From the NCBI RefSeq assembly GCF_000622365.1, contig NZ_JASC01000002.1:62001-126000 (forward strand): a DNA stretch of 64,000 nt, read 5' to 3'. The translations under genes and the position numbers were made by a program. This DNA is from Sulfitobacter noctilucae. Its GTDB lineage: Bacteria; Pseudomonadota; Alphaproteobacteria; Rhodobacterales; Rhodobacteraceae. Numbering within the stretch: the stretch's first letter is position 1; every line of letters begins with the position of its first letter. Shown here piece after piece: positions 1 to 28,467 of this stretch. The notes beneath the pieces were generated by a model, which saw only the letters and a program-made list of their open reading frames with translations, did no database searches and had not been told where the DNA came from.

Positions 1-1008
1 CAGGATGCGATCACGATCATCCCCGCCGAATTGGTTGCCCTGCACAGGCTGACACTGCCGATGCGCAGCGCACGCCGGAAAGCTGCCGCACTTCCTTTCG
101 CCATCGAAGGGGAACTGGGCGACGGTCTCGAGGGGACACATGTGGCTCTATGCGGTCAGGTGGGAGGGACAGGCGGCACCCTAGCAGCTGCGGTTTCGAC
201 TGAGGTGATGGAGAACATCATCGCGCATGAACCGGGTGCGAGATGCGTTCCCGAGCAGCTTCTCCTCAGGTGCCCCGATGCCAGCGACAGCGCCTCTGCA
301 CGTTGGGTCGTCTTTACTCAATCGGGCCGCGCGTTGGTCCGCGCCTCGGACGGAACGGGTTTTGCCGCACGCAGTGATATGCTGCCGACCCTGTGGCAGA
401 TCGCCGGGCAACCCAGTGTCGACAGCTATGGCACGGTTTTGCCAGATGGTGTTCCTGCGCAGCACATGCCTGACGCTTTGCCTCCGCTGACCGATCCCGC
501 TCAATTACCGGACCTAAGGCAGGGAAAGCTCCGCCCGGAACTCGGGCTTGGCAAACCTCTCAAATGGCTCGCTGCCGCCTGCGTTCTGGGTATCGTCTGC
601 CACCTTGGCATCGCTGCCGCCGACGCGCGCGCGCAGCGCGGCATCGCCGATGATCTGCAAAAGGTGGCGGAGGCCGCCCTTACCCCCAGGTTGCCAGATG
701 CCACGGCAGAACAGCCTCCCGCCCTGATCCAGCGCCAGCTTGCGGCCCATAACCAGCCTCAGCGCGGATCGGGCTTTGTGCCGCTGATGAACCGCGTCTC
801 GACCGCGCTTGCAGGTCTGCCTGATGCCGTGCAGTTCCGTCAACTCAGCTGGTCATCGGACGCCCTGCGCATCACGATTGAGACCACTGATCTGGACGCT
901 CTTCAGCGTGCCGAGGCGATGCTGGGCGACGCTGGATTGCGTGTCTCGAGCGGGTCGGCGACGGCCGAGGCCGGGGCCGCCCGCGCTGATCTGACGGTGC
1001 GGCCATGA
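1..1008 (+). CDS. gspL: Type II secretion inner-membrane platform protein GspL (5' end outside window)
   Basis: The frame is open from the first base of the window, so the true start lies upstream. The visible 336 codons show a cytoplasmic actin-like region, then one membrane segment (about codons 190-212, KWLAAACVLGIVCHLGIAA), then a small periplasmic domain of about 110 residues: the GspL layout. In the T2SS, GspL recruits the ATPase GspE to the inner membrane and pairs with GspM. The stop overlaps the start of the next gene by four bases, and M, E and F follow, which supports the call. The cytoplasmic domain is too diverged for a confident call by motif alone, so gene order carries much of the weight. 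Confidence 0.85.
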   Translation, partial: QDAITIIPAELVALHRLTLPMRSARRKAAALPFAIEGELGDGLEGTHVALCGQVGGTGGTLAAAVSTEVMENIIAHEPGARCVPEQLLLRCPDASDSASARWVVFTQSGRALVRASDGTGFAARSDMLPTLWQIAGQPSVDSYGTVLPDGVPAQHMPDALPPLTDPAQLPDLRQGKLRPELGLGKPLKWLAAACVLGIVCHLGIAAADARAQRGIADDLQKVAEAALTPRLPDATAEQPPALIQRQLAAHNQPQRGSGFVPLMNRVSTALAGLPDAVQFRQLSWSSDALRITIETTDLDALQRAEAMLGDAGLRVSSGSATAEAGAARADLTVRP

Positions 1009-1463
1009 AGGTGCTTGCGTCCCTTACCCCGCGCGAACGGGTTCTGATCCTTGGCGGCGGTACACTGCTGCTGGTCTTCGCTGTGTGGTTCTATGTCTGG
1101 CAACCGATTGCCGCAGCACAGAATGTGCAAACAGAGCGCATCGCGCGCTATCTGTCGGTGATCGATCTTGCGGGCCAGATGGGTGACCCGGTGACACAGG
1201 TCGCTGCAACCTCCGCACCTGACACGCCCCTTGCGCAGCGGATCACGCGGAGCGGCGAAGCGGCTGGCATCGCGCTGGCACGGCTCGACCCCGAAGGCCG
1301 GCGCCTGCGCGTCACGGTGGCCGAGGCACCCTATGCTGATCTGATTGGATGGATCGCAACGCTTGAAGCCGAAAGCGGCGTGCGTGCCCTTTCGGTCGAG
1401 ATGTCGCGGCTGACGGGGCCCGGCATGGTTTCCCTGCGGATGACAGTGGAGGATGCTGTATGA
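1005..1463 (+). CDS. gspM: Type II secretion protein GspM
   Basis: A 152-residue bitopic membrane protein with a short basic cytoplasmic tail containing TPRERVL (residues 7-13), one transmembrane helix (about residues 16-33) and a periplasmic domain. A short tail ending in an 'RE+' motif, one helix and a ferredoxin-like periplasmic domain are typical of GspM, which stabilises GspL in the inner-membrane platform. It starts within an ATGA overlap with gspL and ends in an ATGA overlap with gspE, so the genes are translationally coupled. Confidence 0.88.
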   Translation: MKVLASLTPRERVLILGGGTLLLVFAVWFYVWQPIAAAQNVQTERIARYLSVIDLAGQMGDPVTQVAATSAPDTPLAQRITRSGEAAGIALARLDPEGRRLRVTVAEAPYADLIGWIATLEAESGVRALSVEMSRLTGPGMVSLRMTVEDAV

Positions 1464-2938
1464 CGGCGCTCAGTTATAGTTTTGCGAAGGCCAATGGGGT
1501 GCTGATTGAAACGGATGGGGAGGCCGCGCCGCTTTGCCGCCATCTGCCGGGCGCAAAGCTGCCCGCGCTGCTCGAAGCGCAGCGCGTCGCAGGGGGGCAG
1601 ATGCAATTTGAACCCATTGATCCCGACGCTTTCGATCAAGCGCTTTCTGCCACCTACCGTGACAGCGCCTCTCAAGCCGCGAGCATGGCGGACGACGACA
1701 GCGACGACCTGAGTGCTCTTGCCGAAACCGCAGCCTCCGTTGATGACTTGCTGGACCAGAAAGACGATGCTCCGGTGGTGCGTTTGATCAACGCGCTGTT
1801 GCTGGAGGCCGTCAAGGACGGCGCGTCGGACATTCATATCGAGGTGGAGGAAAAGCGCCTTGTCGTTCGGTTCCGCGTGGACGGCGTGCTGCGCGAAGTT
1901 CTGACCCCGCGACGGGCGTTGGCCGCACAGCTGTCCAGCCGGCTCAAGGTGATGGGCAAGCTTGATATCGCAGAAAAACGTCTGCCGCAGGACGGGCGCG
2001 TCAGCCTGCGGGTTGGAAGTTACGAACTGGATGTGCGCATCTCAACCCTGCCGTCGCAATTTGGCGAACGTGTCGTGCTGCGTCTGCTGGACCGGGGACA
2101 GACCCAAACAGGAATTGACAATTTGGGCCTTTCCGAGCGCGATCGCGGGGTTTTCGAGGGGATCATTCACGCGCCAGAGGGGCTGGTGCTGGTCACCGGA
2201 CCTACCGGATCGGGCAAGACGACATCGCTTTATGCTGCACTCCACGCGCTGAATGACCGGGAAAGGAACATCCTTACGGTCGAAGACCCCATTGAATATT
2301 CGATGGAAGGTGTGGGCCAGATACAGGTGAATGCCAAGACCGACATGACCTTTGCGCGTGGGTTGCGTGCCATTCTGCGGCAGGACCCGGACGTGATCAT
2401 GGTGGGCGAAATACGCGACGGCGAAACGGCCCGCATCGCTGTGGAAAGCGCGATGACAGGGCATCTTGTTTTGTCCACGCTGCACACGAACACGGCCATT
2501 GGCGCGGTGTCGCGGTTGATCGACATGGGTGTTGAACGCTACCTTCTGGCCCCGATGCTGCGCGGGTTGGTCGCACAACGCCTGGTCCGCAAGCTGTGTC
2601 CCGACTGCCGCACGGAACGGGCACTGACACCGGCGGAGGCCGCTATGCTGTCAGGTGCAATGACGCCGGGAATGCAGGTTTTCGACGCAGTTGGATGTGA
2701 CACCTGTGCCGATACCGGCTATCGCGGGCGGCTGCCGATTTACGAAATCATCGCAATGACCGCGAAGCTGGAGACGATGATCCACGAGGGCGCGTCGGAG
2801 GCCGATTTGTCAGCGGAAGCCCGCGCCTCTGCACCCAGCATCCTGAAGGATGGCGTGGCAAAAATCCAAGCTGGTCTGACAACCGTATCCGAAGTCGCCC
2901 GCGCGGTGCGCGAGGATGCCGCGGTCGAAGGGGGCTGA
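1460..2938 (+). CDS. gspE: Type II secretion ATPase GspE
   Basis: A 492-residue cytoplasmic secretion ATPase that powers pseudopilus assembly. Visible motifs in order: Asp-box region (about residues 160-200), Walker A GPTGSGKTT (about 247), Walker B region DPDVIMVGEIRD (about 310), His box STLHTNTA (about 343), and the tetracysteine zinc module CPDC (about 379) with CDTC (about 413) that marks GspE/PilB-type enzymes. The N-terminal GspL-binding region is short and diverged. The start overlaps gspM by four bases. All catalytic motifs look intact. Confidence 0.97.
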   Translation: MTALSYSFAKANGVLIETDGEAAPLCRHLPGAKLPALLEAQRVAGGQMQFEPIDPDAFDQALSATYRDSASQAASMADDDSDDLSALAETAASVDDLLDQKDDAPVVRLINALLLEAVKDGASDIHIEVEEKRLVVRFRVDGVLREVLTPRRALAAQLSSRLKVMGKLDIAEKRLPQDGRVSLRVGSYELDVRISTLPSQFGERVVLRLLDRGQTQTGIDNLGLSERDRGVFEGIIHAPEGLVLVTGPTGSGKTTSLYAALHALNDRERNILTVEDPIEYSMEGVGQIQVNAKTDMTFARGLRAILRQDPDVIMVGEIRDGETARIAVESAMTGHLVLSTLHTNTAIGAVSRLIDMGVERYLLAPMLRGLVAQRLVRKLCPDCRTERALTPAEAAMLSGAMTPGMQVFDAVGCDTCADTGYRGRLPIYEIIAMTAKLETMIHEGASEADLSAEARASAPSILKDGVAKIQAGLTTVSEVARAVREDAAVEGG

Positions 2939-2940
2939 GG

Positions 2941-4149
2941 ATGCCCGCATTCCAATATCAGGCGGTCGATCCGTCCGGCAAGAAAACCAAGGGGTTGCTG
3001 GAAGCGGCCAGCGCCGCCGCCGCCCGCGCCGAGTTGCGCGCGCGCGATCTTCTGCCCTTGTCTGTGGAGGCGACGCGGCAGCGTGCAGGTGCATCGCGCG
3101 GCGTGGGATCGCATCGGCTGTCCTTCAAGAAACAGGTGTTGGTGACGCGGCAACTGGCAACGCTCGTGGGGGCGCAGGTGCGGATCGAGGATGCGCTCAA
3201 GATCGTGACGGAACAGATGTCGGGCACCCGCGACGTGTCGCTTTTGCTGAACCTGCGCAGTGCCATCGTGGATGGGCGCAGTTTTGCCGAGGCTTTGGAG
3301 GACGTGCCGGGGTCTTTCGACGAATACTACCGCGCCTCCGTGCGGGCGGCAGAAAGCGCGGGTAAGCTGCCGGAGGTTCTGGAGCATCTGGCACTCCATA
3401 TCGAGGATCGCGCCCGCAATCGGCAAAGCCTGCAACTGGCGCTGATATACCCGGCACTTCTAGCACTGGTGTCCGTCGGCGTGATAGTCGCACTGCTGAC
3501 CTTCGTCGTACCCGACATCGTGCGCGTCTTCACAGCACGCGGTGCCGACCTGCCAGGGCTGACGCGTGGTCTGATCGCCGTGTCGGACTGGATGACACGT
3601 TGGGGATTGATGGTGGGTGGCGCTTTGGCGCTTGGGCTTCTCGCCGGGCTTGCCCTGCTGCGCCAACCCGCTTTGCGGCTACAATGGGACGGCTGGCTTA
3701 TCCGCGCGCCGCTGATTGGCCCACTGGTGTTGCGCATGAACGCGGCGCAATTTTCGGGCACGCTGGCCACGCTGGTGCAATCAGGTGTGCCGCTGGCCGA
3801 AGCGCTGCGCGCAGCATCGGGCACTGTTCCCAACCGGTTCATGCGCAAGCGCGTGGGCGAGATCACACAGGCCGTACAGGACGGGGCGGCATTGTCGCGC
3901 GCGGTGACGGCGGCGAAGGTATTTCCGCCGATGCTGATCGCCATGATCGCAAGTGGTGAGGCAAGCGGCAAGCTGGGCGAAAGTTTGAACAAGGCCGCGA
4001 TAGATCAAGCGGCAGGATTGAAAGCGACGGTCAGCACGATTGTCGCGCTGGTCGAACCGGCAGTTCTGTTGGTGATGGGAGGCGTCGTGATGCTTTTGGT
4101 GATGGCGATACTGATGCCGATCGTGGGGTTGAATGGTCTGGCGGGGTGA
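2941..4149 (+). CDS. gspF: Type II secretion inner-membrane protein GspF
   Basis: A 402-residue polytopic membrane protein that forms the central platform of the T2SS. It has the GspF/PilC duplicated architecture: the N-terminal signature FQYQAVDPSGKK (residues 3-14), a first cytoplasmic T2SSF domain, two closely spaced membrane segments (about 165-190 and 220-240), a second cytoplasmic domain with GTLATLVQSGVPLAEAL (about 274-290), and a C-terminal helix. It begins two bases after the gspE stop, preceded by GAGG. Its stop abuts the stop of the oppositely oriented gspN. Confidence 0.96.
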   Translation: MPAFQYQAVDPSGKKTKGLLEAASAAAARAELRARDLLPLSVEATRQRAGASRGVGSHRLSFKKQVLVTRQLATLVGAQVRIEDALKIVTEQMSGTRDVSLLLNLRSAIVDGRSFAEALEDVPGSFDEYYRASVRAAESAGKLPEVLEHLALHIEDRARNRQSLQLALIYPALLALVSVGVIVALLTFVVPDIVRVFTARGADLPGLTRGLIAVSDWMTRWGLMVGGALALGLLAGLALLRQPALRLQWDGWLIRAPLIGPLVLRMNAAQFSGTLATLVQSGVPLAEALRAASGTVPNRFMRKRVGEITQAVQDGAALSRAVTAAKVFPPMLIAMIASGEASGKLGESLNKAAIDQAAGLKATVSTIVALVEPAVLLVMGGVVMLLVMAILMPIVGLNGLAG

Positions 4150-4890
4150 TCAGAACGGCAGTTGCAAAGTGATCGGGCCACCACGCGGCAGGGCCGTAAA
4201 AATCTCTGCCGCAGTGGGCTCAATGGCAATGTCGATGATCCTGTCGCGGCCCAAGCGTATCCGCGCCATGGGAGGTTGGCCATCGCTTGAAAGTGTCGCG
4301 AGCCCATCTTTGCCGACCTGTGACAGGTTAATCTGCAAAGACGGTATGTTCGCCTGCCGCGTGCCTTCCGTGCAAATCCCCGCCGGTGTGGCGACGTTGC
4401 CGCCTGCGGCCGCATCGCGCCAGCCCCAGCGAAGCGATACGTCCCGCACCGTCGCTGACATTTCACAGGTCCACGCACCGGGAATCAGCCGCGCCAGCCC
4501 AGGACCTGCGCGGCCCGAAAGGTCGACTACAGCAAAACCGCGAAGCCCCGCAGATGCCCAACCGGTCAGCCGCGTATCTCCTCCTTCAAGCACCGTATCG
4601 CTACGGAGATGAGGCAAAGGCAGCATCAGCAAACGGCTATCCCAGCGCAGCGCATAGCCGCCTTCGAGCAAAGCGCGCCCATCGCCTACAGAGCCTTGCA
4701 CCGCAAGCACCGCTGGCGGCATGTCTATGTTTCGGGTAAGCAAGCTTATCGGTACACGCAGGGCCAATGTGCCGGCCAGCAACAGCAGGATCGCCAATGT
4801 CACAGCCAGTAAAACCATCCAAAGCCCGACCCGTAGAGCCGTCGCACGGCCTGTCACGGCGGCGGGTGCTGGCGGGGGCCTCTGCTGCAT
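4150..4890 (-). CDS. gspN: Type II secretion protein GspN (antisense within the gsp operon)
   Basis: A 246-residue protein with a short proline-rich cytoplasmic tail, one N-terminal transmembrane helix (about residues 24-46) and a periplasmic beta-rich domain with a probable disulphide pair (Cys about 141 and 173). This matches GspN, an accessory T2SS inner-membrane protein. It is encoded on the strand opposite to all the other gsp genes here: its stop abuts that of gspF and its start lies inside the 5' end of the next plus-strand gene. The ATG at 4890 has no clear ribosome site; Met25 at 4818 is an alternative start that still keeps the membrane helix. The family call is based on layout and context. 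Confidence 0.75.
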   Translation of the reverse strand: MQQRPPPAPAAVTGRATALRVGLWMVLLAVTLAILLLLAGTLALRVPISLLTRNIDMPPAVLAVQGSVGDGRALLEGGYALRWDSRLLMLPLPHLRSDTVLEGGDTRLTGWASAGLRGFAVVDLSGRAGPGLARLIPGAWTCEMSATVRDVSLRWGWRDAAAGGNVATPAGICTEGTRQANIPSLQINLSQVGKDGLATLSSDGQPPMARIRLGRDRIIDIAIEPTAAEIFTALPRGGPITLQLPF

Positions 4891-5912
4891 CCTTGGTCTC
4901 GCTTTCTGCGGGTTGCGGGGAGCTTGTGCTGCCCGGTTCAGGGTCGGGGTCCACTACGGGCGGGCCGCGCCGGTCGGCGGTGCTGTTGCCGCTATCGGGG
5001 CAATCGGCAGAACTAGGCCAGAGATTGCGCACCGCCGCAACCCTCGGCGGCGGTCCCGGCATCGGAATCGAGATTATCGACAGCGGATCAACGGCTGAAA
5101 GCGCCGTGGCGGCAGCTACCGCAGCGGTGGCGGCGGGGGCCGAAATGCTGGTCGGTCCGGTGTTCAGCGCCCAGACCGAAGCGGTCAGTCAAGCGGTGCG
5201 CGTGCCGATCGTGAGCCTGTCGAACAACGCAAGCCTTGCGGGGCGGCGCACCTTTGTGTTTGGCGTCACCCCTGCTCAATCCGCGCAGGCGATCCTTTCA
5301 ATTGCAGCACAGCGCGGGCTGGGAGACGTGGCTACGGTCGTCCCCCCCGGAACATTCGGCGCTCAATCGGCGGCTGCCGCAGAACGTGTAGGAACAGCTC
5401 TAGGTCTGCGCGTGCGGCCCACGCTGGTGCGCTCAAGCGCCGAGGGACTCGTGGCAGCTTTGCAAGCCAGCGGGCCGCTGCCGAAAGCGGTCTATCTGCC
5501 CGCCGCCGATGCGACCCTCGCGGGATTTGCAGAAGCTTTACGGGGTCAGGGCGTCCAGCTTCTGGGCTCAACCCAGTGGTCCTCACTTGACCTTTCGGGC
5601 CGACCTGCGTTCCGCGATGCGTGGTTCGCGGCACCCGATCCGCTGCGCTTTGCCGCCTTTGACGAGACCTACAGCCAAGTAGCCGGATCACCCGGTGGGA
5701 TCATCACCGGTCTGGCCTTCGACGGAGTGGAGCTTTTGCGCATCCTGGGACAAGCCGGCCAGCTTTCCGTAAGAGGTCTGACACGCGACAATGGATTTAC
5801 CGGCGTTGTCGGTCCCTACCGGTTCCTGCGCTCGGGTCTGTGCGAACGCGGGCTTGGCGTGTTGAAGGTTGGCGCAGGAGAGTTCAGCCTGATCGGCAGC
5901 ACATCCGTATGA
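4797..5912 (+). CDS. Lipoprotein with periplasmic-binding-protein (LpoA / Leu-Ile-Val-type) fold
   Basis: A 371-residue predicted exported lipoprotein. The N terminus carries SRRRVLAGASAASLVSLSAGC: a twin-arginine-like stretch followed by a lipobox with Cys at about residue 40. The body has the type I periplasmic-binding fold seen in branched-chain amino-acid receptors and in the C-terminal domain of LpoA (VLLPLSGQSAELGQRLR near the start, GAEMLVGPVFSAQTEAV further on). LpoA-like proteins activate penicillin-binding proteins, so a cell-wall role or sensing of wall material during T2SS assembly is possible but inferred. The start at 4797 is chosen for an AGGA eight bases upstream; an earlier ATG at 4767 is possible. 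Its stop overlaps gspJ by ATGA, so it is a member of the gsp operon. Its 5' end is antisense to gspN. Confidence 0.75.
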   Translation: MSQPVKPSKARPVEPSHGLSRRRVLAGASAASLVSLSAGCGELVLPGSGSGSTTGGPRRSAVLLPLSGQSAELGQRLRTAATLGGGPGIGIEIIDSGSTAESAVAAATAAVAAGAEMLVGPVFSAQTEAVSQAVRVPIVSLSNNASLAGRRTFVFGVTPAQSAQAILSIAAQRGLGDVATVVPPGTFGAQSAAAAERVGTALGLRVRPTLVRSSAEGLVAALQASGPLPKAVYLPAADATLAGFAEALRGQGVQLLGSTQWSSLDLSGRPAFRDAWFAAPDPLRFAAFDETYSQVAGSPGGIITGLAFDGVELLRILGQAGQLSVRGLTRDNGFTGVVGPYRFLRSGLCERGLGVLKVGAGEFSLIGSTSV

Positions 5913-6460
5913 GCCAGCCGCAGCGTGCCGGGGATGCGGGCGTCAGCCTAATTGAAGTCCTGGTATCACTGGCCATCTTCGCGGTGATTGGCGTGGCCGG
6001 TTTGGCCGTTCTTAACACCGTTTCACGCACGGGCGAACGCACGGAAGGGCGGCTAGAGCGGCTCGCCGACATAGACCGAAGCTTTGTGATCCTGCGCCGT
6101 GATCTGATGCAGATGCGTGGGCTGACTGCGACATTGGAGGCAGGGGCCCTGCGGTTCCTGCGCCCGGTGGAGGGTACAGCCGTCGAAATCACTTATCTGA
6201 CAAATGAGGATGTTTTACTGCGGCGCATTGATCGGGTGGGGACTGATAATGTGGATCAGCATCTGCTCGACGATGTTGCCTCAGCTGAGTGGAAGTTGAT
6301 GGATCGATCGGGCCGCTGGTATGGCACTTGGCCCCCCGCCAGCGCGACAGACGCGGTGCGGCCACACGCTGCTGAACTGGTGCTGAACGTGCGGGCGGAC
6401 GGGGGCCGGACAGAATTTATCACCCGCCTTTTCCCGCTGGCCGCAGGACAGGGCCGATGA
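5909..6460 (+). CDS. gspJ: Type II secretion minor pseudopilin GspJ
   Basis: A 183-residue protein with a prepilin-type leader: a short basic N terminus, then Gly before VSLIEVLVSLAIF, with Glu at +5 of the mature protein and a hydrophobic helix. GspJ is a tip pseudopilin that caps the pseudopilus with GspI and GspK. The ATG lies in an ATGA overlap with the upstream lipoprotein gene, and the stop overlaps gspK the same way. The +1 residue is Val rather than the usual Phe. GspI and GspJ are hard to tell apart by eye; position directly before gspK favours GspJ. Confidence 0.85.
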   Translation: MSQPQRAGDAGVSLIEVLVSLAIFAVIGVAGLAVLNTVSRTGERTEGRLERLADIDRSFVILRRDLMQMRGLTATLEAGALRFLRPVEGTAVEITYLTNEDVLLRRIDRVGTDNVDQHLLDDVASAEWKLMDRSGRWYGTWPPASATDAVRPHAAELVLNVRADGGRTEFITRLFPLAAGQGR

Positions 6461-7317
6461 GTGGCCGCACGCAGGACAGCGGCGTTGTGCTTGTCAATGT
6501 ACTGGTGTTGCTGGCGATTGCGGGCGGCTTGATGGTGCTGCTGATCTCAGGGCAGGAACGCACACTGGATCGGATTTCGGCGTCCAGCGATGCCGCCATC
6601 GCCGAACAGATCGCGCTTGGGGCCGAAGCATCGGTGGTGGATGCCTTGCGCCGCGATATGGATACTGCGCCAGAGACGGATCATCTGAACGAACCTTGGG
6701 CGCTCAGCGTCGTGCAGCAGGAAACGCAGCTTCCGACAGGGCGGTTTTCGGTCGCTGTTGAGGATTTGCAGGCGAAATTCGATATCAATCAACTGGGTGA
6801 TTTATCGGCGGGCACGCAGGCCTTCGGCACGCGGCTGATGACAGCACTTGATCAGCCGCCGGGTACGGTGAACCAGATCGTGCGCATCCTTCAGGCCGTG
6901 GGCCGCATCTCTGCGCTTGAGGATTTAACGGATTACGGTGTGGCAACGGAAACTGTCGCAGCTCTCGCACCGCATGTGACGGCGCTGCCTGTGCCGGGTA
7001 CGGTGAACCTCAATTCGGTCGAGCCATTTCTGTTGTCAGTGATGATGCAGAACCCAAGCCAATCCGCGCAATTGCTGCGCCTGCGCGAAGGGCGCGTAAT
7101 GCTGTCTTTGGACATGTTGCAGGGTGTTGGTGCGCTGCGCCCGCAAAATAGCGGATTTACCTCAAACGTGTACCGGGTAGATATTCTGGCTGAGGCGGGC
7201 AGTGCCAGCATAGCCTTGCGAACGGTACTGGTCCGGCGCAATGCAGCGGGGATCAAGGCCGTGGACGTACTGGAACGGCAACTCCGACCGTCCGCGAATT
7301 TGCCCCCCGAAAAGTAG
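6457..7317 (+). CDS. gspK: Type II secretion minor pseudopilin GspK
   Basis: A 286-residue protein with a prepilin-like leader (Gly then VVLVNVLVLLAIAGG). Position +5 is Asn rather than Glu, as expected for GspK, which is the one pseudopilin that lacks Glu5. The large globular part contains the helix-hairpin-helix-like T2SSK domain, with repeated short segments such as NLNSVEPFLLSVMM (about residues 186-199). GspK forms the tip of the pseudopilus. It is the last gene of the operon and is followed at once by a strong hairpin terminator. Confidence 0.9.
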   Translation: MSGRTQDSGVVLVNVLVLLAIAGGLMVLLISGQERTLDRISASSDAAIAEQIALGAEASVVDALRRDMDTAPETDHLNEPWALSVVQQETQLPTGRFSVAVEDLQAKFDINQLGDLSAGTQAFGTRLMTALDQPPGTVNQIVRILQAVGRISALEDLTDYGVATETVAALAPHVTALPVPGTVNLNSVEPFLLSVMMQNPSQSAQLLRLREGRVMLSLDMLQGVGALRPQNSGFTSNVYRVDILAEAGSASIALRTVLVRRNAAGIKAVDVLERQLRPSANLPPEK

Positions 7318-7350
7318 AAAGCCCCCGACACGCGGGGGCTTTCTGGTCTT
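7317..7350. terminator. Bidirectional rho-independent terminator between gspK and the convergent lipoprotein gene
   Basis: A perfect 10-bp stem (GAAAGCCCCC at 7317-7326 with GGGGGCTTTC at 7334-7343) and a seven-base loop, followed by a T-rich stretch on the plus strand. It directly follows the gspK stop and also lies downstream of the convergent gene ending at 7369. Confidence 0.85.
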
Positions 7351-7368
7351 TTTCGTGTCAGCCGGCGT

Positions 7369-7587
7369 TCAGGGATTGAACGGGTCGGCTGTGCTATTGA
7401 CCGAGATGTTGATGCTTTGCGCATCTACCGGCTCGGCGTTGGCGTCCGCATCGAACATGGCGCGGAATGCCGCCCCGAATGTGTCGATGCCTGTCGCTTC
7501 CTCGCCGCCCGCATTGTCTGAGTCGTCGCATGCGGCGATCAGAAGGACGCTGGTCATCAAGGCTGCTGTTGTAAACTTCAGTTTCAT
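7369..7587 (-). CDS. Small secreted lipoprotein, unknown function
   Basis: A 72-residue protein with a typical lipoprotein signal: Lys-rich start, hydrophobic core and lipobox LIAAC with Cys at residue 20. The mature part is about 50 residues, acidic (several Asp and Glu) and of low complexity, with no recognisable domain. It lies 12 bases downstream of the DUF4331 gene on the same strand, so the two are probably co-transcribed and may act together at the cell surface. Confidence 0.65.
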   Translation of the reverse strand: MKLKFTTAALMTSVLLIAACDDSDNAGGEEATGIDTFGAAFRAMFDADANAEPVDAQSINISVNSTADPFNP

Positions 7588-7599
7588 GAATGCTCCCGT

Positions 7600-9162
7600 T
7601 TAGTTGGTTGCGCCGGGCAGTGGCGTGTTCAGGTAGGGGAACGCGTTCTGCAACTCGGCTGCGGAGATCGGCGCACCATCGATGAAGGGCGCATTGCCAA
7701 CCGGTGCGTCTTCAGGTGCACACAGACCAAGGTTCACTAGATCGGTGTCCGTGTCTTCCACAGCGCCTTCGATGCCAAGCTCGGCACCCAATGGAACTGG
7801 GTGACAAAGAGCACCCATAACAACGCGCAAGGCGATGTCGACCGTGTCGTCACCCGGACGGCGTCCATTTGGGAAACCTGCAAGGTCTTCTGCGACAACA
7901 CCAAATGGGCTTTGCGCATCACGCGGTGTCACCGGAATGGCTGTGTTCAGGCGCATCATTTCTGAAGGCGTCACGGTTGCCAGTTGGTTCACACCCGGGA
8001 AACCGGTGAGGAATGCAGTAACAAGATCCTGACGCGGCAGGTTTGATGGCGCGATATTGCTTGTCGCACCCAAAGCGTCGCGGAACAGGATGTCAATCAG
8101 TGCAGGCAAAGTCGGGTTGGTCACATAGGTGGCCAATGCGCTGTCCTGTGTTGGTTCTGCTGCGTTAAAGAGATCCTTGTCCGGAAGGCCGATCACGACT
8201 TCGTTCACCAGTGGGTTGGACAAACGCGACTGCTGCACAAACGCACCACCGTAAACGGAGGTAGACGCGTATGTAGGCGAGGGATCTTCGACTTCGCCCT
8301 GTGGCAGGCTGGCCGTTGTCCATGCGCCGATCACGCCGTTGCCATCACCCGTGACACAGGAAATCGGCACTTCAAGCGCCAGTGATGTCACGTTGAACCG
8401 GTCCACAAGATCGTCGTTGGAACGGTCGTTTTCGATCGAGCCTTCCAGCGGTACGAGATTCACAAGGTCAAAAATTTCGCCAAGATTGACGGCAAAGGCT
8501 TCGGCACGCTGGCCGACAAACACCTTGCCGGGTGCTTCGCAGCCGGGGATCGAAACGTCGTGGATCAGGCTGTTTGCATAACCCTCGTAATCCGGCAGTG
8601 TCTTGGTGCCGACATAGTCAAGCGGTTTGGTAAAGCTGGTGTTGCCACCGTCGCCTGTGACCATTGAGGCTTCACCCGAACGGCGATCACCCATGATCTT
8701 CTTCAGCGTGTAGCTTTCCATTTCGTTCAGCGGATCATCGGCGGCACCAGTGATTGGGCCAGCCGTCCGTAGCGGGATCGCGACGGTTGCATCACCGATT
8801 TCCAGCGCAATGCCCGCACCGTCCATTGCGAGAGTATTCTCGAAATCGAACTGGAACGTGACGTCTTCAACCGCGTCACCGTCATTGTCGATGTGGATCT
8901 CGTAGATCGCATCGGGGTCCATCGTGAAATAATTCGGACCGCCGTAGGGGGCCTGCAATGGAATATAATTGGCGATGAAAGTAACGTAGTCTTCACGCCC
9001 CGGCTCGTAACTGCGGAACATGTAAAAATCTGTTGCGTCCACTTTAGGCTGCTCGGTGATCCCCGGTGCCTCGCGGTGGGACGAAGCCCCCGCAGTGGAG
9101 GCGACGAGGGCGGCAACACTGGCCGTCATCGCGAATTTTGTAGCTGTCTTGGTAAATGGCAT
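7600..9162 (-). CDS. Secreted DUF4331-family protein
   Basis: A 520-residue protein with a Sec signal peptide (basic start, then FAMTASVAALVASTAGA) and the characteristic DUF4331 opening SSHREAP (about residues 27-33) followed by DATDFYMF (about 42-49). DUF4331 proteins are secreted or periplasmic and of unknown function. The start at 9162 is preferred over an ATG eight codons upstream because AGGAG sits six bases before it. The gene lies between gspK and a prepilin peptidase gene, so it is a reasonable candidate for T2SS cargo (inference). The downstream lipoprotein is probably in the same transcript. Confidence 0.88.
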   Translation of the reverse strand: MPFTKTATKFAMTASVAALVASTAGASSHREAPGITEQPKVDATDFYMFRSYEPGREDYVTFIANYIPLQAPYGGPNYFTMDPDAIYEIHIDNDGDAVEDVTFQFDFENTLAMDGAGIALEIGDATVAIPLRTAGPITGAADDPLNEMESYTLKKIMGDRRSGEASMVTGDGGNTSFTKPLDYVGTKTLPDYEGYANSLIHDVSIPGCEAPGKVFVGQRAEAFAVNLGEIFDLVNLVPLEGSIENDRSNDDLVDRFNVTSLALEVPISCVTGDGNGVIGAWTTASLPQGEVEDPSPTYASTSVYGGAFVQQSRLSNPLVNEVVIGLPDKDLFNAAEPTQDSALATYVTNPTLPALIDILFRDALGATSNIAPSNLPRQDLVTAFLTGFPGVNQLATVTPSEMMRLNTAIPVTPRDAQSPFGVVAEDLAGFPNGRRPGDDTVDIALRVVMGALCHPVPLGAELGIEGAVEDTDTDLVNLGLCAPEDAPVGNAPFIDGAPISAAELQNAFPYLNTPLPGATN

Positions 9163-12088: not shown

Positions 12089-12512
12089 AGAGAAACAACC
12101 GTCCGGAGCCGGGTCACGCGCGCCTTTTGGTCCGCACAGTTCACGCAAGCGAACGACTGTAGCGGGCCGCCAGCCGACGCATACAAGAGTTGCGGAAATG
12201 GCAGCTTTGTCTCTCGACTTAATTTTAAAGCCCGCGCGCAGCGAATGCTGCGCTGCATCCGATGACTGCTTCGAGCTCAAAGTTTCAGATGCTGCGCCGC
12301 GCTTGCACGTCCGCTAACGCGAAAAATACGAAACCCTTGAACAAAAGGGCAAGTTCGGAACGGGGATTTTTGGAGGCGTCAACGGATGGGGTTTGGGCCT
12401 GTGTCGAAAAGGAACACTTTTGGGCACCCAGCTCCGCTTGAATTACCCAAAGGCCAATGTGAAACTATATCTAATCATTGTACGTTCTTAATTGTGAACG
12501 ACGGAGTGGAAC
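12089..12512. other. Intergenic stretch, likely decayed DNA plus upstream region of the metal-transport unit
   Basis: No supported gene. The part from 12090 to 12320 reads like degenerate sequence (its reverse strand has a GCATTCGCTGC phrase similar to one near 17915). The AT-richer last 100 bases (12420-12512) presumably carry the promoter of the following operon; I did not find a convincing Zur, Fur or Mur palindrome there. Confidence 0.4.
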
Positions 12513-13079
12513 TTGAGTAGTAGATTGAAATTGGGGCTTTTTTTAATCGGGGCGATCATTGCGGCTGCCCTGTTAGCCGTCGTCATTTTCCTGCGGCCCG
12601 GTGAGGCGCGTACGTATGCCACTCCGGGTTTTGAAAACATGACCGCGCATGAGCTTTCCAGTAAATCCTATCAGGTCGTGCCAGAAATGTTATCCGTCGT
12701 ATATCTCGCCTTTGGAGAGACTAATGAGGTAGTAATCTACGACAAACTGGCTGAAGTCTCCGCCGAAGATGCTCTCGAAACGCTCTATCTGGAACGCGTC
12801 GGCGCGATGGTCGGTGGCGGTCTGGATGAAGCAGACCAGACCCTGCACGCGATGGAACTGACGAGCCTGTCATCGTGGCAATCAGGCAATACCGTTACGA
12901 TGGATGTAAAATGGCATGTCGTCGGTACTGTCGGGCACGCCACCCATCTGCATGTGCGCGGCAACACCTATTCGGCAAACCTGACTGTTGAGCCAGTAGG
13001 CGGTGCGTGGCGGATGACAGCGTTTGTTCTTACAGATGTAGACCGCAGCGATGCAGGTACAATGGTAGCGGCAGAATGA
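12513..13079 (+). CDS. Membrane-anchored periplasmic protein with C-terminal His motif, first gene of the metal ABC unit
   Basis: A 188-residue protein with one N-terminal transmembrane helix (about residues 8-27) and a periplasmic domain of about 160 residues. Near the end is WHVVGTVGHATHLHVRGN (about 133-150), with four histidines spaced so that they could bind a metal ion, followed by a beta-rich NTF2-like end. No named family comes to mind. The TTG start is chosen because GGAG lies nine bases upstream and no ATG fits before the helix. The stop overlaps the ATPase start (ATGA), so it belongs to the transporter operon and may be its periplasmic metal relay or chaperone (inference). Confidence 0.75.
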   Translation: MSSRLKLGLFLIGAIIAAALLAVVIFLRPGEARTYATPGFENMTAHELSSKSYQVVPEMLSVVYLAFGETNEVVIYDKLAEVSAEDALETLYLERVGAMVGGGLDEADQTLHAMELTSLSSWQSGNTVTMDVKWHVVGTVGHATHLHVRGNTYSANLTVEPVGGAWRMTAFVLTDVDRSDAGTMVAAE

Positions 13080-13747
13080 TCGAAATATCTGATTTATCAT
13101 TTGCCTATCCGGGCGGCGATTTCCGACTGACGATCCCGTCTTTACGTTTGGACGCAGGTGAAAAAGTCGCCGTGGTCGGACCCAGCGGCACCGGCAAGAC
13201 GACGCTTTTGAACTTGATTGCGGGGATAACCGTGCCAGACAACGGCACTGTGCATCTGGGCGAAACAGAAATTTCTAAGCTGGGGGATTCAGCCCGCCGT
13301 GCGGTGCGTGCATCACAGATCGGCTTTGTCTTTCAAGACTTTGCACTTCTGGACTATCTGAACGCACGCGAAAATATTCTTTATCCCTATCGCATCACAT
13401 CCGGCGCGAAGCTGGACGGCGCGGCCCGCACTCGCGCCGCAAATCTGGCAACATCCTGCGGGCTTGGTGACAAACTGGATCGTCATCCTGGCGCACTCAG
13501 CCAAGGCGAACAACAACGTGTCGCCCTATGCCGTGCGCTGGTGATGCGACCGAAACTGATTTTAGCAGACGAGGCGACCGGTAACTTAGACCCGGAAAAT
13601 AAATCTGCCATTCTCGATCTGCTATTTGAACGGACCGCAGAACATGGGGCGTCCTTACTGGCCGTCACCCACGATCACGATCTGTTGCCACGCTTTGACA
13701 GGATTATCGACTTTGCCGCGTTCCGGCAAAAAGAGGTGGCGCTTTGA
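13076..13747 (+). CDS. ABC transporter ATP-binding protein (LolD/MacB type), metal ABC unit
   Basis: A 223-residue ABC ATPase. Walker A GPSGTGKTT (about residues 35-43), Q-loop VFQDFALLDYL (about 84-94), signature LSQGEQQRV (about 140) and Walker B KLILADEATGNLD (about 159-171) are intact. The ADEATGNLD form and the order of loops place it with LolD/MacB/FtsE-type ATPases, which partner FtsX-fold permeases, rather than with ZnuC. It overlaps the preceding gene by ATGA and the permease by TTGA, so all three are coupled. Confidence 0.92.
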   Translation: MIEISDLSFAYPGGDFRLTIPSLRLDAGEKVAVVGPSGTGKTTLLNLIAGITVPDNGTVHLGETEISKLGDSARRAVRASQIGFVFQDFALLDYLNARENILYPYRITSGAKLDGAARTRAANLATSCGLGDKLDRHPGALSQGEQQRVALCRALVMRPKLILADEATGNLDPENKSAILDLLFERTAEHGASLLAVTHDHDLLPRFDRIIDFAAFRQKEVAL

Positions 13748-14901
13748 ACGCATTCCATCTTGCCTTCGCGTATCTGCGGTTCAACTGGATCAGGTCATTG
13801 GTGCTTGTTCTTGTCACGGCACTGATCCTTGCGGTGCCGATCATCAGTCAAGTGCTGTTGAACGGATCACGCGCCGCTTTGACTGACCGGGCTGACGCAA
13901 CACCGCTGGTTTTGGGCAGTCGCGGCAGCCAGCTCGATCTAGTGATGAACGCGCTTTATTTTTCTGAAGACCGCGCAGAACCTGTGACTATGGCCGTGAC
14001 GGATACGGTCTGGAACACGGGGCTGGGCCTGCCGATCCCAATGAACACGGCGTTCGAGACGAACGGCTCACGTATTATCGGCACCTCTTTGGATTACTTT
14101 GATTTTCGCGGGCTGGAGGTTGCGGACGGACGCGGCATTGCCGTTTTGGGCGAGGCTGTGCTGGGCGCGGATGTGGCTGCACGTCTTGCTCTTGGTCCTG
14201 GCGACACGGTCGTGTCATCACCGGAAAACCTGTTTGATCTTGACGGGGTATACCCACTTGAACTGAACGTCGTTGGTGTGTTTGCCCCAACTGGAACGCC
14301 GGACGACGAGGCGGTGTTCGTCGATATAAAAACTTCATGGGTGATTTCAGGCATCGGACACGGCCATGATGGTGTCATGGCGACAGGGGCGGAAGGCGAA
14401 GACATCGTTGCAGCGGCCAGTATTCTTGAGTTCAACCGGATTACGGACGAAAACATCGACAGCTTTCATTTCCACGGCGACCCCGCGAGCTATCCGGTGT
14501 CAGCCATCATCCTTGTGCCCAGTGATGAACGGGCGGGGACGATCCTGCGTGGGCGCTACCTCGACCCTGAAAACCCCGTTCAGGTGATCGTTCCTAAAGA
14601 CGTGGTTGGCGATCTCGTAGACCGTATTTTCCGCATCAAAACACTGCTCGATGCTGTGTCATTAATCATTGGAACGGCGGCGCTGGCTGCCATCGGACTT
14701 GCGATTTTTCTATCCTATCGCCTTCGCGCGCGGGAAATGCAGACTGCATTCAAGCTCGGGGCGAGGCGCGGCATGATTGTGCGCCTTCTGGCTGCCGAGA
14801 CATTCATATTACTGAGCATTGCCGGAGTCATATCTTTAGGCATCGTCCTTGCCGTGCAATCGCGCGGCGATACCATTGTGGCCTGGCTACTGGCGACATG
14901 A
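13744..14901 (+). CDS. FtsX-like ABC permease, metal ABC unit
   Basis: A 385-residue permease with the MacB/FtsX arrangement: one N-terminal membrane helix (about residues 18-38), a large periplasmic domain, then three helices at the C-terminal end (about 300-325, 345-365 and 370-385, the last short). The large periplasmic loop contains GIGHGHDG (about 202-209) and FHFHGDPA (about 241-248), two His-rich spots not expected in LolC or MacB and suggestive of metal handling. The TTG start overlaps the ATPase stop. A total of 385 residues is normal for a single-module FtsX permease. Confidence 0.88.
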   Translation: MNAFHLAFAYLRFNWIRSLVLVLVTALILAVPIISQVLLNGSRAALTDRADATPLVLGSRGSQLDLVMNALYFSEDRAEPVTMAVTDTVWNTGLGLPIPMNTAFETNGSRIIGTSLDYFDFRGLEVADGRGIAVLGEAVLGADVAARLALGPGDTVVSSPENLFDLDGVYPLELNVVGVFAPTGTPDDEAVFVDIKTSWVISGIGHGHDGVMATGAEGEDIVAAASILEFNRITDENIDSFHFHGDPASYPVSAIILVPSDERAGTILRGRYLDPENPVQVIVPKDVVGDLVDRIFRIKTLLDAVSLIIGTAALAAIGLAIFLSYRLRAREMQTAFKLGARRGMIVRLLAAETFILLSIAGVISLGIVLAVQSRGDTIVAWLLAT

Positions 14902-14925
14902 TCTCAACCTCACAGGGAGACTTCA

Positions 14926-15696
14926 ATGAAAAAGACTTTTGCGACCGTACTTACACTTGCCGCCCTCACCGGCACGACAGCACTTGCCCACTATGGAATG
15001 ATCATCCCATCTGACAGCATGATCAGCCAAGAAGATGGCCGGTCTGTCGGTCTGACCCTGTCGTTCTCGCACCCGTTTGAGGGCAACGGTATGGTTCTGG
15101 ACGCCCCAGTGTCGTTCAGCGTGACCCACGAGGGTGAAACAACCGACCTGATGGGTGATCTTGCGGACACCGAAGTAATGGGCCAGCCCGCTTTCATGCT
15201 GGATTATCCGCTGGAACGACCCGGCACCTATGTCTTCGCGATGGAGCCCCAGCCATATTGGGAACCGGTCGAGGACAGCTTCATAATTCATTACACTAAA
15301 ACCTACGTGAGCGCGTTTGGCGATGATGAAGGCTGGGATGCTGAACTGGGACTGCGCACCGAAATCGTGCCGCTGTCCAAGCCATTTGGCCTTTGGGAAG
15401 GCAACGTATTCCAAGGCGTTGTGATGCTTGATGGCGCGGCCGTGCCGAGGGCGGAGGTCGAAGTTGAATATTATAATGAAGATATGTCCGCGACAGCGCC
15501 CAGCGATCTGATGATCACCCAAACGATCAAGGCAGATGCAAATGGCGTGTTCACATATGCGGCCCCATCTGACGGTTGGTGGGGCTTCGCCGCACTTAAC
15601 ACTGCCCCGGAAACGATGGACTACGAAGGCAAGGACAAAGCTGTCGAACTGGGGGCCGTCATCTGGGTGAACTTCGAGGAATGGACCGGCGAATGA
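14926..15696 (+). CDS. DUF4198 / NikK-like periplasmic metal-transport accessory protein
   Basis: A 256-residue exported protein: a signal peptide ending near ALA, with the mature N terminus beginning HYGMIIP, so a histidine is at or next to the new N terminus. This layout and the repeated beta-sandwich body (LTLSFSHPFEGNGM, about residues 42-55) match DUF4198, the family of the NikK component of nickel/cobalt uptake systems. An N-terminal His exposed by signal cleavage is a known way to bind Ni or Co. It has a ribosome site (AGGGAG) and follows the permease by 24 bp. Its stop overlaps the NikL-like gene. Metal identity cannot be told from sequence. Confidence 0.85.
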   Translation: MKKTFATVLTLAALTGTTALAHYGMIIPSDSMISQEDGRSVGLTLSFSHPFEGNGMVLDAPVSFSVTHEGETTDLMGDLADTEVMGQPAFMLDYPLERPGTYVFAMEPQPYWEPVEDSFIIHYTKTYVSAFGDDEGWDAELGLRTEIVPLSKPFGLWEGNVFQGVVMLDGAAVPRAEVEVEYYNEDMSATAPSDLMITQTIKADANGVFTYAAPSDGWWGFAALNTAPETMDYEGKDKAVELGAVIWVNFEEWTGE

Positions 15697-16028
15697 GAAC
15701 TCTAATTATCGCTTTGGCGGTAATCGGGTGGGCCACAGCGAGCGTGGCCCATCAACTTATCGTTTTCGCCTTTGTGGAAGATGGCGCTGTAATTGTTGAA
15801 ACGAAATTCTCCACTGGAAAAATTCCAATTTCTGGTGAAGTACGCATTTTTGACGCCGAAAACACATTGTTGCTGACCTTACCATTGGAAAAAGATGGGA
15901 CAGTGCGCTTTCCCCTCGATCCCGACGCATCAACGCAAGGTCTGTCCATTGAAGTTGAAACCAGTGAAGGGCATGACAATTACTGGGTTCTCACGCCTGA
16001 CGACATTGAACGTGGCACGGAGAACTGA
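15693..16028 (+). CDS. NikL-like small periplasmic protein of the metal ABC unit
   Basis: A 111-residue exported protein with a signal peptide (about residues 1-18) ending SVA, followed by HQLIVFAFVEDG, so His would again be at the mature N terminus. This matches the NikL component, which accompanies NikK in nickel/cobalt ECF importers: a small beta-sandwich that begins with His after cleavage. The start is in an ATGA overlap with the NikK-like gene and the stop lies three bases before the binding-protein gene. No NikMNQO (ECF) genes are present here; the partner is an FtsX-type ABC pair instead. Confidence 0.75.
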   Translation: MRTLIIALAVIGWATASVAHQLIVFAFVEDGAVIVETKFSTGKIPISGEVRIFDAENTLLLTLPLEKDGTVRFPLDPDASTQGLSIEVETSEGHDNYWVLTPDDIERGTEN

Positions 16029-16031
16029 ACG

Positions 16032-16943
16032 ATGAACCTATTCAATCCCAACCGGCGGGCAATGTCCTTACTGTTGCTGTCCATTGCCACCGCGCCGTTC
16101 GCAGGTCCGGCTTTAGCACAAGACAGAGCAGTCATCGCGACCGTCAATTATCCGTTGGCCTATTTTGCTGAACGGTTGGTCGGCGACACTGCCGATGTTC
16201 TGTTTCCCGTCCCTGCAGGCGTTGATCCATCGTTTTGGCGTCCCGGTATTGTTGAAATTTCTGCCATGCAGGCAGCGGATGTAATTGCATTTAATGGCGC
16301 AGGGTTTGCGACATGGACAACCAAAGTGTCGTTATCCCGATCCCGGATTGTGGATACCTCTGCCGGTTTTTCCGACCACTATATCTCGACCGAGACGATC
16401 ACACACTCGCACGGGGAAGACGGCGCACATTCCCACACAGGCACCGCAAACTACTTTTGGCTGGATTTCTCTCTCGCCGCGCGTCAGGCAGAAACCCTGG
16501 CCGCAGGATTGATCCGCCGCATGCCAGACGCAGAGGCCAGCATCACCTTGAACCTTGAAGCTCTGACCAACGACCTTGCAGCACTTGATGCATCGGCCAA
16601 AGACCTGAACGCACTTGTCGCGGGTGCAGCGGCCATCTCGTCCCACCCAAGATACCAGTATTTCGGGCGTGCTTATGGTCTGGATATTACGCCGATGGAA
16701 TGGGACGCAAACGAAGCTGTGACCGAAGAGCAATGGAAAAACCTTGAAGCCGTCGTAGCCGAGACGGGAGCGAAGCTGTTCATTTGGGAGGCAACTCCTG
16801 CGCCAGAAGCAAGGGCCCGCATCAAAGATATGGGTTTGGTGGACATAGTCTTCCCGCCTCTCTCCAACCGACCAGCGTCGGGTGATTTTCTGAATGGGAT
16901 GATCACGTCAGTTGAACAGGTCAAAAAGATCATTTTGGAATAG
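16032..16943 (+). CDS. ZnuA-like (cluster A-I) metal ABC substrate-binding protein
   Basis: A 303-residue periplasmic receptor. The signal peptide ends near ALAQ; the body opens VIATVNYPLAYFAERL (about residues 36-51), typical of cluster A-I metal receptors. A flexible His/acid loop HSHGEDGAHSH (about residues 125-135), as in zinc-specific ZnuA proteins, sits between the lobes, and SSHPRYQYFGRAYGL (about 201-215) carries the second-lobe His ligand. Zn is the likeliest substrate, with Mn, Ni or Co possible. ZnuA normally works with ZnuB/ZnuC; neither is nearby, and the only permease in the operon is FtsX-like. Confidence 0.88.
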   Translation: MNLFNPNRRAMSLLLLSIATAPFAGPALAQDRAVIATVNYPLAYFAERLVGDTADVLFPVPAGVDPSFWRPGIVEISAMQAADVIAFNGAGFATWTTKVSLSRSRIVDTSAGFSDHYISTETITHSHGEDGAHSHTGTANYFWLDFSLAARQAETLAAGLIRRMPDAEASITLNLEALTNDLAALDASAKDLNALVAGAAAISSHPRYQYFGRAYGLDITPMEWDANEAVTEEQWKNLEAVVAETGAKLFIWEATPAPEARARIKDMGLVDIVFPPLSNRPASGDFLNGMITSVEQVKKIILE

Positions 16944-17165
16944 ACTTCAAAACCACTTTTTGTCGAACGGTTCGCCGAACCCGACGTTGGCGCTCCTGCA
17001 GCGAAGGTCCGAAAAGTCCGCGAAGCTGTCATCGTCGCGTCGCGCGGCTAATGGCTGCTGTGAGCCCACCTTTCCGGATGCTGCACGTTGCGCTAATGTC
17101 GGGCTTTGAAGTTACGACTAACCCCAAGCTATCAATCTTTCGAAATCAACTGGAAAGCTCAATAC
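16944..17165. other. Intergenic decayed stretch
   Basis: No supported gene or clear terminator. The segment 16980-17100 has the broken phrases seen elsewhere in this window's non-coding DNA (see 10076-10509). Confidence 0.35.
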
Positions 17166-17676
17166 ATGTCAAACGAAGACACTGAAATTTCGGAACTTAC
17201 CGAAATTTTTCGGTCACTGGGTGCTCAGGAGCTAGGCCAGTTCTTAAGCTCAAGAGAAAAAACCTCAGCTTCATAGGTTCCTTTTCCTGCGGCAAGCGTG
17301 GGCTCAAGTCGTCGACGAAGCAGATGATAGCTGGATTGAAAGAGTGATTGAAGCCGCAAATCGTAATCCGGCGGAGCCGTTTTCCGGCCAAGGTCAAGCG
17401 ATAGAACGCATGTTGTCACTGGGCGTCAGCCGTTCTGACATTGTAGATTTGGTTCGCAGTTCGCAAGTCGAAGCGATCTCCCGGCTTTGCTACTTTTTAG
17501 ATGACCCATCGTTGTGCAATGAAGAGAATGAGCGCGTCCGATCTGTGGGTTGGGCTCTTGTTGTAACGAATGAAGACTTTGAGCCGACCGACAAAGTCAT
17601 TGGTGGCCTGCATGAATCAGTTTTGGAGACAGACCCAACTGGTCGAGAAATGCGGCCTCGAAAAAAACTCCAATAA
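17166..17676 (+). pseudogene. Hypothetical protein gene interrupted by a frameshift in a poly-A run
   Basis: An ATG at 17166 opens a frame of 36 codons (MSNEDTEISELTEIFRSLGA...) that ends at a TAG at 17274. A second frame, in which the protein continues to 17676, takes over exactly at a run of six A at 17257-17262. Removing one A gives a continuous protein of about 169 residues running ...SSREK into PQLHRFLFLRQAWAQVVDEA and on to a basic end RPRKKLQ. The joined protein is acidic and helical, with no recognisable family. The lesion may be a real mutation, an assembly error or, less likely, programmed frameshifting. Confidence 0.6.
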
Positions 17677-28390: not shown

Positions 28391-28467
28391 TGGCGATCCC
28401 GGAAGGACTCGAACCCTCAACATCCTGATTAGAAGTCAGGTGCTCTATCCAGTTGAGCTACGGGACC
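28391..28467 (-). tRNA. tRNA-Arg (anticodon TCT)
   Basis: A complete 77-nt cloverleaf on the minus strand with encoded CCA. The acceptor stem is GGTCCCG paired with CGGGATC (one G-U pair), then discriminator G and CCA. The anticodon stem CCTGA/TCAGG encloses the loop CTTCTAA, giving TCT, which reads AGA/AGG arginine codons. GTTCGAGTC forms the T loop. Its 3' end faces the accessory patch with the AAA+ ATPase and the tniQ remnant, so it could be an integration site. Confidence 0.97.

Follow-up and report, generated by a model that had tools for sequence, protein, structure and literature searches.

A candidate transition-metal ABC system pairing an FtsX/MacB-type permease with a ZnuA-like receptor in Sulfitobacter noctilucae

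The DNA studied here, termed the window, is a 64,000-nucleotide stretch of the Sulfitobacter noctilucae genome (contig NZ_JASC01000002.1, positions 62,001 to 126,000), in which six tightly coupled genes at 12513-16943 encode a histidine-bearing protein that we call G1, an ATP-binding cassette (ABC) ATPase, an FtsX/MacB-type permease, a DUF4198 (NikK-like) protein, a NikL-like protein and a ZnuA-like substrate-binding protein (the receptor). Direct reading of the open reading frames (ORFs) reproduces the overlaps and gaps given in an earlier first-pass annotation of this DNA. Four of the genes (ATPase, permease, G1 and receptor) form a core that recurs across several phyla. The features are as follows.

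12513-13079, + strand: G1 gene; TTG start; from ORF reading, no Pfam or NCBIfam family
12936-12959, + strand: G1 HxxHxHxR motif, on the hairpin tip that joins strands 127-142 and 145-162
13076-13747, + strand: ABC ATPase gene, FtsE/LolD/MacB type; 4-base overlap with the G1 gene
13744-14901, + strand: FtsX/MacB-type permease gene, with a His-bearing periplasmic domain; TTG start; 4-base overlap with the ATPase gene
14359-14367, + strand: permease HGH, residues 206-208, on strand 205-207 of the model
14464-14475, + strand: permease FHFH, residues 241-244 (family form FHxH), on strand 241-243 of the model
14926-15696, + strand: DUF4198 (NikK-like) protein gene; 24-base gap after the permease gene
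15693 (ATG) to 16028, + strand: gene for a NikL-like small protein; 4-base overlap with the DUF4198 gene
16032-16943, + strand: gene for a ZnuA-like (cluster A-I) substrate-binding protein; 3-base gap after the NikL-like gene
16401-16436, + strand: receptor His loop THSHGEDGAHSH
12200-12512, no strand: upstream region, without a Zur-box match

The ATPase matches Pfam ABC_tran (5.8e-32), its best NCBIfam models (FtsE, LolD, YbbA and DevA) each scoring below cut-off. The permease exceeds the cut-off for MacB_PCD (5.2e-10) and stays under it for FtsX (0.0062; 17 bits versus 25.5). Pfam assigns the DUF4198 protein (DUF4198, 4e-57) and the receptor (ZnuA, PF01297, 3e-33); it gave no significant match for the NikL-like protein, which reaches 65 bits (8.6e-18) against the NCBIfam NikL model NF058648, cut-off 100. 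Scans of G1 against Pfam and NCBIfam returned no family. Among the six proteins, Pfam found no adaptor or outer-membrane channel, and no ABC-3 (ZnuB-type) permease, ZrgA (PF10986) or DUF3299.

Histidines of the four-gene core

We collected 73 permease loci, 63 of them distinct at 97% permease identity, counting a receptor where a ZnuA-like gene lay no more than 3 kb from the permease on its strand. The receptor gene is present at 60/63 distinct loci (missing in L043, which stops at a contig edge, L052 and L056) and G1 at 58/63 (missing in L037, L038, L041, L052 and L055, the first four being contigs of 4.2-7.2 kb). Recurrence of the core around 63 distinct permeases means that the gene mixture is not due to chance. 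The first-pass annotation had proposed a six-gene unit, to be given up if orthologous operons never contained the ZnuA-like gene. That gene is a near-constant member and the core of four stands, whereas the DUF4198 and NikL-like genes occur, at the thresholds used, in only 35/63 and 36/63 distinct loci and are an alphaproteobacterial addition.

Scanning a single genome of each species with a sequence pattern yielded 44 permease loci, under titles from Rhodobacteraceae, Gammaproteobacteria, Bacteroidota, Acidobacteriota, Gemmatimonadetes, Planctomycetes, Verrucomicrobia and a deltaproteobacterial bin, among others. Many permease loci are metagenome bins; those of Christiangramia, Methylotetracoccus and Methylolobus come from strains. 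At an expect value (E) of 1e-40 the permease was found in 25/394 genomes of the family, 4/385 of the class and 5/398 of the phylum, each count including the S. noctilucae genome itself. The best two plasmid matches are to Methylomagnum and Paracoccus plasmids, the others listed lying below 27% identity. By these searches, the system is rare yet widely scattered among bacteria.

The permease carries HGH(D) at residues 206-209 and HFHG at residues 242-245. None of H206, H208, H242 and H244 varies across an alignment of 33 rows, and HGH and FHxH occur together in 63/63 distinct loci; with the receptor count, this supports the earlier view of a recurrent metal-linked system. Neither motif is found in the seven ZrgB, one LolC-like and one FtsX-like proteins compared, or in three further FtsX-type permeases. 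The model (predicted local distance difference test, pLDDT, 85.6) has the two motif strands separated by a low-confidence stretch (210-226), and we infer that HGH and FHxH may make up a single site. One of these three further permeases, at locus L013 (G043:C3), nevertheless bears a loop very rich in His where the family has HGH/FHxH.

The permease fold is predicted to be MacB-like: fold matches rank MacB first, then LolE, with the haem exporter HrtB lower, and the nearest solved chains by profile are FtsX, YtrF, YbbP and LolE. Best alignment with Lol or MacB systems combined with loss of the His motifs had been named beforehand as telling against the annotation; the former was found at superfamily level, but the motifs are fully conserved. 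The permease and ATPase work like a type VII pair. In a permease tree, the family forms its own clade (100/99, 33 rows) and ZrgB another (100/99, 7 rows), the two joining at 95/89 against the rest; long branches meet there, so the sister relation to ZrgB is unsure. ZrgB proteins were named by an adjoining ZrgA, itself confirmed by Pfam in the S. noctilucae genome and in L026 and by clustering for the other five.

The AlphaFold2 model of G1 (pLDDT 92.0) comprises a helix (2-26) followed by an alpha+beta domain, predicting a single N-terminal transmembrane helix as anchor and an NTF2-like domain. Foldseek places ARC6/PARC6 intermembrane-space domains top, with lower matches to bile-acid dehydratases, Tim44, VirB8 and NTF2-like proteins. 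H142, H145 and H147 sit at a hairpin tip in the model; with R149 they are invariant across 57 aligned rows, and HxxHxHxR is present in all 68 G1 ORFs from a profile search, duplicates included. Our analysis defines a previously unnamed His domain of predicted NTF2-like fold. Longer proteins that carry it at their C-terminus are the usual form outside the main alphaproteobacterial group.

G1 occurs in 31/394 genomes of the family, 25/25 with the permease and 6/369 others, the latter scoring weaker; the G1 profile had been built with rows from most of the 25, which leaves the scarcity of G1 elsewhere as the one independent result. The six permease-free genomes hold seven G1 loci, with no family permease or receptor in the stretch read, two being short contigs. 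At L142-L147, Rhodobacteraceae that lack this ABC system encode long G1-domain proteins. HxxHxH is kept in 5/7 of these G1 proteins and absent in two. At 3/7 loci (L143, L144 and L145) a HupE_UreJ_2 protein adjoins G1; these share with our system a G1 domain bearing HxxHxH and differ in the absence of the family permease and receptor from those stretches. Metallo-beta-lactamase-fold proteins also adjoin long G1 proteins in L142 and L144. A PpiC-type prolyl isomerase lies upstream of the long G1 gene at L045:319-3184 and L040:2355-3203 (Acidobacteriota, Bacteroidota), L045 having in addition a DUF3604 protein upstream. A HupE identity considered for the long Bacteroidota G1 proteins was dropped, there being no Pfam match.

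The window receptor was compared with solved ZnuA-type chains, alignments agreeing for the canonical metal ligands His1, His2 and His3. His1 is replaced by Ser and His2 by Tyr, whilst His3 and the Glu are retained. Canonical His1 is found in 0/60 receptors (Ser in 28, Ala in 26), with a Trp two positions further in 59/60; His2 is kept in 11/60 and His3 and Glu in 51/60 each, incomplete rows being scored as gaps. Three canonical control receptors have His1, His2 and Glu in 3/3 and His3 in 2/3. The receptor loop shows HxHG in 59/60; the two histidines of the HxH that follows are each kept in 57/60. By sequence, the core combines invariant histidines, four in the permease and three in G1, with a ZnuA-type receptor whose metal site is changed.

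Known systems and the rest of the genome

The S. noctilucae assembly (3.9 Mb, 14 contigs, estimated 100% complete) contains one copy of the family permease. All other matches come from a single paralogous frame, split in two pieces, which is the permease of a separate ZrgA-ATPase-permease-DUF3299 locus, and the claim that the six genes are not the Zrg gene set holds. A cluster A-I receptor, ATPase, ABC-3 permease and Fur-family gene are also encoded, which we read as ZnuABC-Zur, the Fur-family match falling just below cut-off. A second cluster A-I operon ("sit-like") and a LolC-like frame elsewhere are named by resemblance only.

ZrgABC is the nearest described relative. V. cholerae ZrgABC is reported to be tied genetically to zinc acquisition (PMC9820375), as is V. 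parahaemolyticus ZrgA to the same process (PMC9817125). ZrgABCDE (V. cholerae) and PA4063-PA4066 (P. aeruginosa) have a split ATPase and FtsX/MacB-type permease, and they are reported to have a metal-binding periplasmic protein and a link to zinc starvation; similar parts occur here. They differ in having ZrgA (PF10986) and DUF3299 in place of the ZnuA-like receptor and G1, and in a permease without HGH/FHxH (0/7 ZrgB), the window permease lying outside the ZrgB clade. Both systems coexist in the S. noctilucae genome and stand side by side in L026.

Cluster A-I importers (ZnuABC, AztABC and SitABCD) share the PF01297 receptor but use a different permease class, and canonical His1, absent here in 60/60, and His2, kept in 11/60, set our receptors apart. 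That the locus is simply a ZnuABC or Zrg operon whose members have diverged, as the PF01297 receptor and the neighbouring position of ZrgB in the tree (95/89) might suggest, is highly improbable: the six proteins include no ABC-3 permease, ZrgA or DUF3299, ZrgB and the family form separate clades (100/99 each, with the long-branch warning), the His motifs are in 0/7 ZrgB and His1 in none of the receptors, and ZnuABC-type and Zrg loci are present elsewhere in the genome.

With the energy-coupling factor nickel/cobalt importer NikKMLQO, the system shares the DUF4198/NikK-like and NikL-like proteins, the latter at its 65 bits against a cut-off of 100. In contrast to NikKMLQO, no CbiM/NikM core subunit was found for it: the assembly gave no match at E 0.001, as the first-pass annotation had held for the NikK/NikL partner, in a search that matched only 3 archaea among 14 control genomes. 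In both proteins a His (AHYG in the DUF4198 protein) stands at what is presumed to be the mature N-terminus; it is conserved in 35/35 aligned sequences each, with cleavage sites placed by eye. A 2009 survey describes orphan NikK/NikL with uninformative neighbourhoods (PMC2667541); the six-gene system may be a home for such orphans, which would gain a plausible partner.

MacAB-TolC, LolCDE, HrtBA and FtsEX share the type VII permease fold, and MacB_PCD over cut-off together with the fold matches (FtsX being sub-threshold) puts the window permease in this MacB-fold superfamily. The six-gene system departs from all four in its receptor and His motifs. MacAB-TolC has the ATPase fused to the permease and a MacA adaptor, against separate genes and no adaptor among the six here; LolCDE has two permease species, against a single permease gene. 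By the features compared, the system falls outside Zrg, ZnuABC, NikKMLQO, MacAB and LolCDE.

Metal genes beside the relatives

The genes found next to the system in relatives suggest zinc (znuA, or zrg accompanied by Zur boxes), nickel (nikR) or some other metal of cluster A-I. In L023 (= L103) znuA lies about 75 bases upstream of the system and is followed, further out, by a Fur-family gene and an ABC-3 permease; a perfect Zur box precedes the znuA of this zur-znuCB/znuA cluster. In L026 (= L112) it is divergent from zrgA-ATPase-permease-DUF3299, with two Zur boxes, GTTATGTAATAAC and GTTATACTATAAC, between zrgA and G1. L113 has a zur-znuBCA-type cluster 2 kb downstream. A sit-like cluster A-I operon is divergent in L117 and about 5 kb away in L108; weaker cluster A-I matches 4-7 kb away in L106 and L124 were left uncounted. 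In L117, where a sit-like receptor gene is divergent from G1, a palindrome, AAATGAGAATTATTCTCATTT, which we take to be Fur-like, lies close to the start of that gene (7690-7740).

For nickel, nikR stands directly upstream of the system in L120, scoring 124 bits against one NikR model (cut-off 83), over the Pfam NikR_C cut-off and under that of TIGR02793. The Methylomagnum plasmid copy (L072:2877-18546) has nikR next to a TonB receptor at a distance of about 3 kb; a CopC-like protein, two TonB receptors and NikR surround the system there, and both the CopC-like protein and a hypothetical neighbour are seen again next to the system in L054. A metal-gene neighbour at 6/35 NikK-bearing loci gives P of 4e-5 to 7e-3, calculated post hoc from assumed chance rates of 1.8-5% that were guessed.

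Scanning 1.05 Mb in 74 stretches (duplicates included) for a 15-base Zur box at up to 2 mismatches gave 16 sites versus 6.3 in shuffles; two perfect boxes are a single locus read twice. The box form agrees with Caulobacter sites printed in PMC4176598. The same paper reports znuGHI as a Zur-repressed ABC-2 type system and lists a DUF4198 gene among those down in a zur mutant. In the accessible portion of a Paracoccus denitrificans zinc RNA sequencing study, transporter table included, no FtsX/MacB-type permease is named (PMC5387054). No description of the gene set was found in the open-licence literature, most subscription papers falling outside that scope.

Direction and mechanism

The locus probably encodes an FtsX/MacB (type VII) transition-metal ABC system, Zrg-like, for ATP-driven acquisition or periplasmic hand-off of Zn/Ni-type metals. 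We favour this because invariant histidines occur in three separate proteins; because receptor and G1 accompany the permease at almost all loci; because no adaptor or outer-membrane channel is present among the six proteins; because uptake genes or metal regulators adjoin the system in relatives; because ZrgABC and ZrgA are reported to be tied to zinc acquisition in Vibrio (PMC9820375, PMC9817125); and because G1 relatives outside the system adjoin HupE/UreJ permeases at 3/7 loci.

In such a system, the receptor would bind metal via its HxHG...HxH loop with the retained His3/Glu and dock onto the permease periplasmic domain; ATP hydrolysis would drive movement there, passing metal among the receptor, permease and G1 by way of their His sites. 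The metal would then enter the cytoplasm or go on to another importer, and the NikK/NikL-like proteins could collect or buffer it. A more specific scheme, which we hold tentatively as a possibility, is a metal relay that several phyla would share and that could plug into either zinc or nickel regulons: a mechanotransmitting type VII permease with four histidines might take Zn/Ni from the rebuilt receptor and pass it to G1, with ABC power stripping or handing over periplasmic metal, or else powering import, which would be the first by an FtsX fold working with a cluster A-I receptor.

Several observations weigh against acquisition. At least 54 of the 63 distinct loci have no such metal-gene neighbour among the reference genes tried (7 were counted), and the neighbours name different metals. 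The window operon lacks a Zur box upstream (12200-12520) even at 3 mismatches, and the boxes in L023 and L026 may serve only znuA and zrgA. NikR-type sites were below chance, numbering 109 at up to 3 mismatches versus 178 expected from shuffles (same stretches; 28-base consensus), and we claim no NikR site. Urease, tried as a marker of nickel need, is non-discriminating, being over cut-off in 25/25 genomes with the system and 22/25 without. Loss of the canonical histidines could mean that the receptor has ceased to bind metal. To our knowledge, no type VII ABC pair has been biochemically proven an importer. The fold lies nearest MacB and LolE, with the HrtB haem exporter matched too, and the related PA4063-PA4066 has been argued to export pyochelin-cobalt (PMC11481552).

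The last two observations favour a MacB-like pump that expels a metal, metal-chelator or other molecule from the inner membrane or periplasm, the ZnuA-like protein serving as sensor or chaperone. We regard such export as quite unlikely, given that ATPase and permease genes are separate, a MacA-type adaptor is absent from the six, a ZnuA-type receptor accompanies the permease at 60/63 loci and the linked metal genes are uptake genes or NikR/Zur-type regulators. The Zrg and PA4063-66 reports themselves disagree, import versus export; the six-gene system has the same permease kind with a recognisable cluster A-I receptor and invariant histidines in three proteins, so that its direction and mechanism can be tested directly.

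Genes for type II secretion are present at G000:C2:52000-71000 (L129), the end of which overlaps window 1-9000; T2SSF was identified with Pfam, GspD and GspL because they match annotated counterparts, and a DUF4198 paralogue adjoins gspD. On a Paracoccus liaowanqingii plasmid (L071:1-7762), a type II secretion cluster runs directly into the metal system. This proximity might hint at metallation of secreted enzymes, and a machine that loads metal into secreted or periplasmic enzymes, without feeding the cytoplasm, would also suit the predicted single-helix anchor of G1. It is nonetheless an unlikely account: type II secretion is near just these two loci, in flanks searched mostly over 5-9 kb, and no client enzyme was identified.

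Around the operon, promoter-like sites are at chance level in a promoter/terminator scan of 12090-17200. The sole Rfam match at the gathering threshold is a tRNA at 28394-28467. The window holds a second FtsX-type permease at 60065-61762, an 849-residue open frame with two FtsX domains (duplicated).

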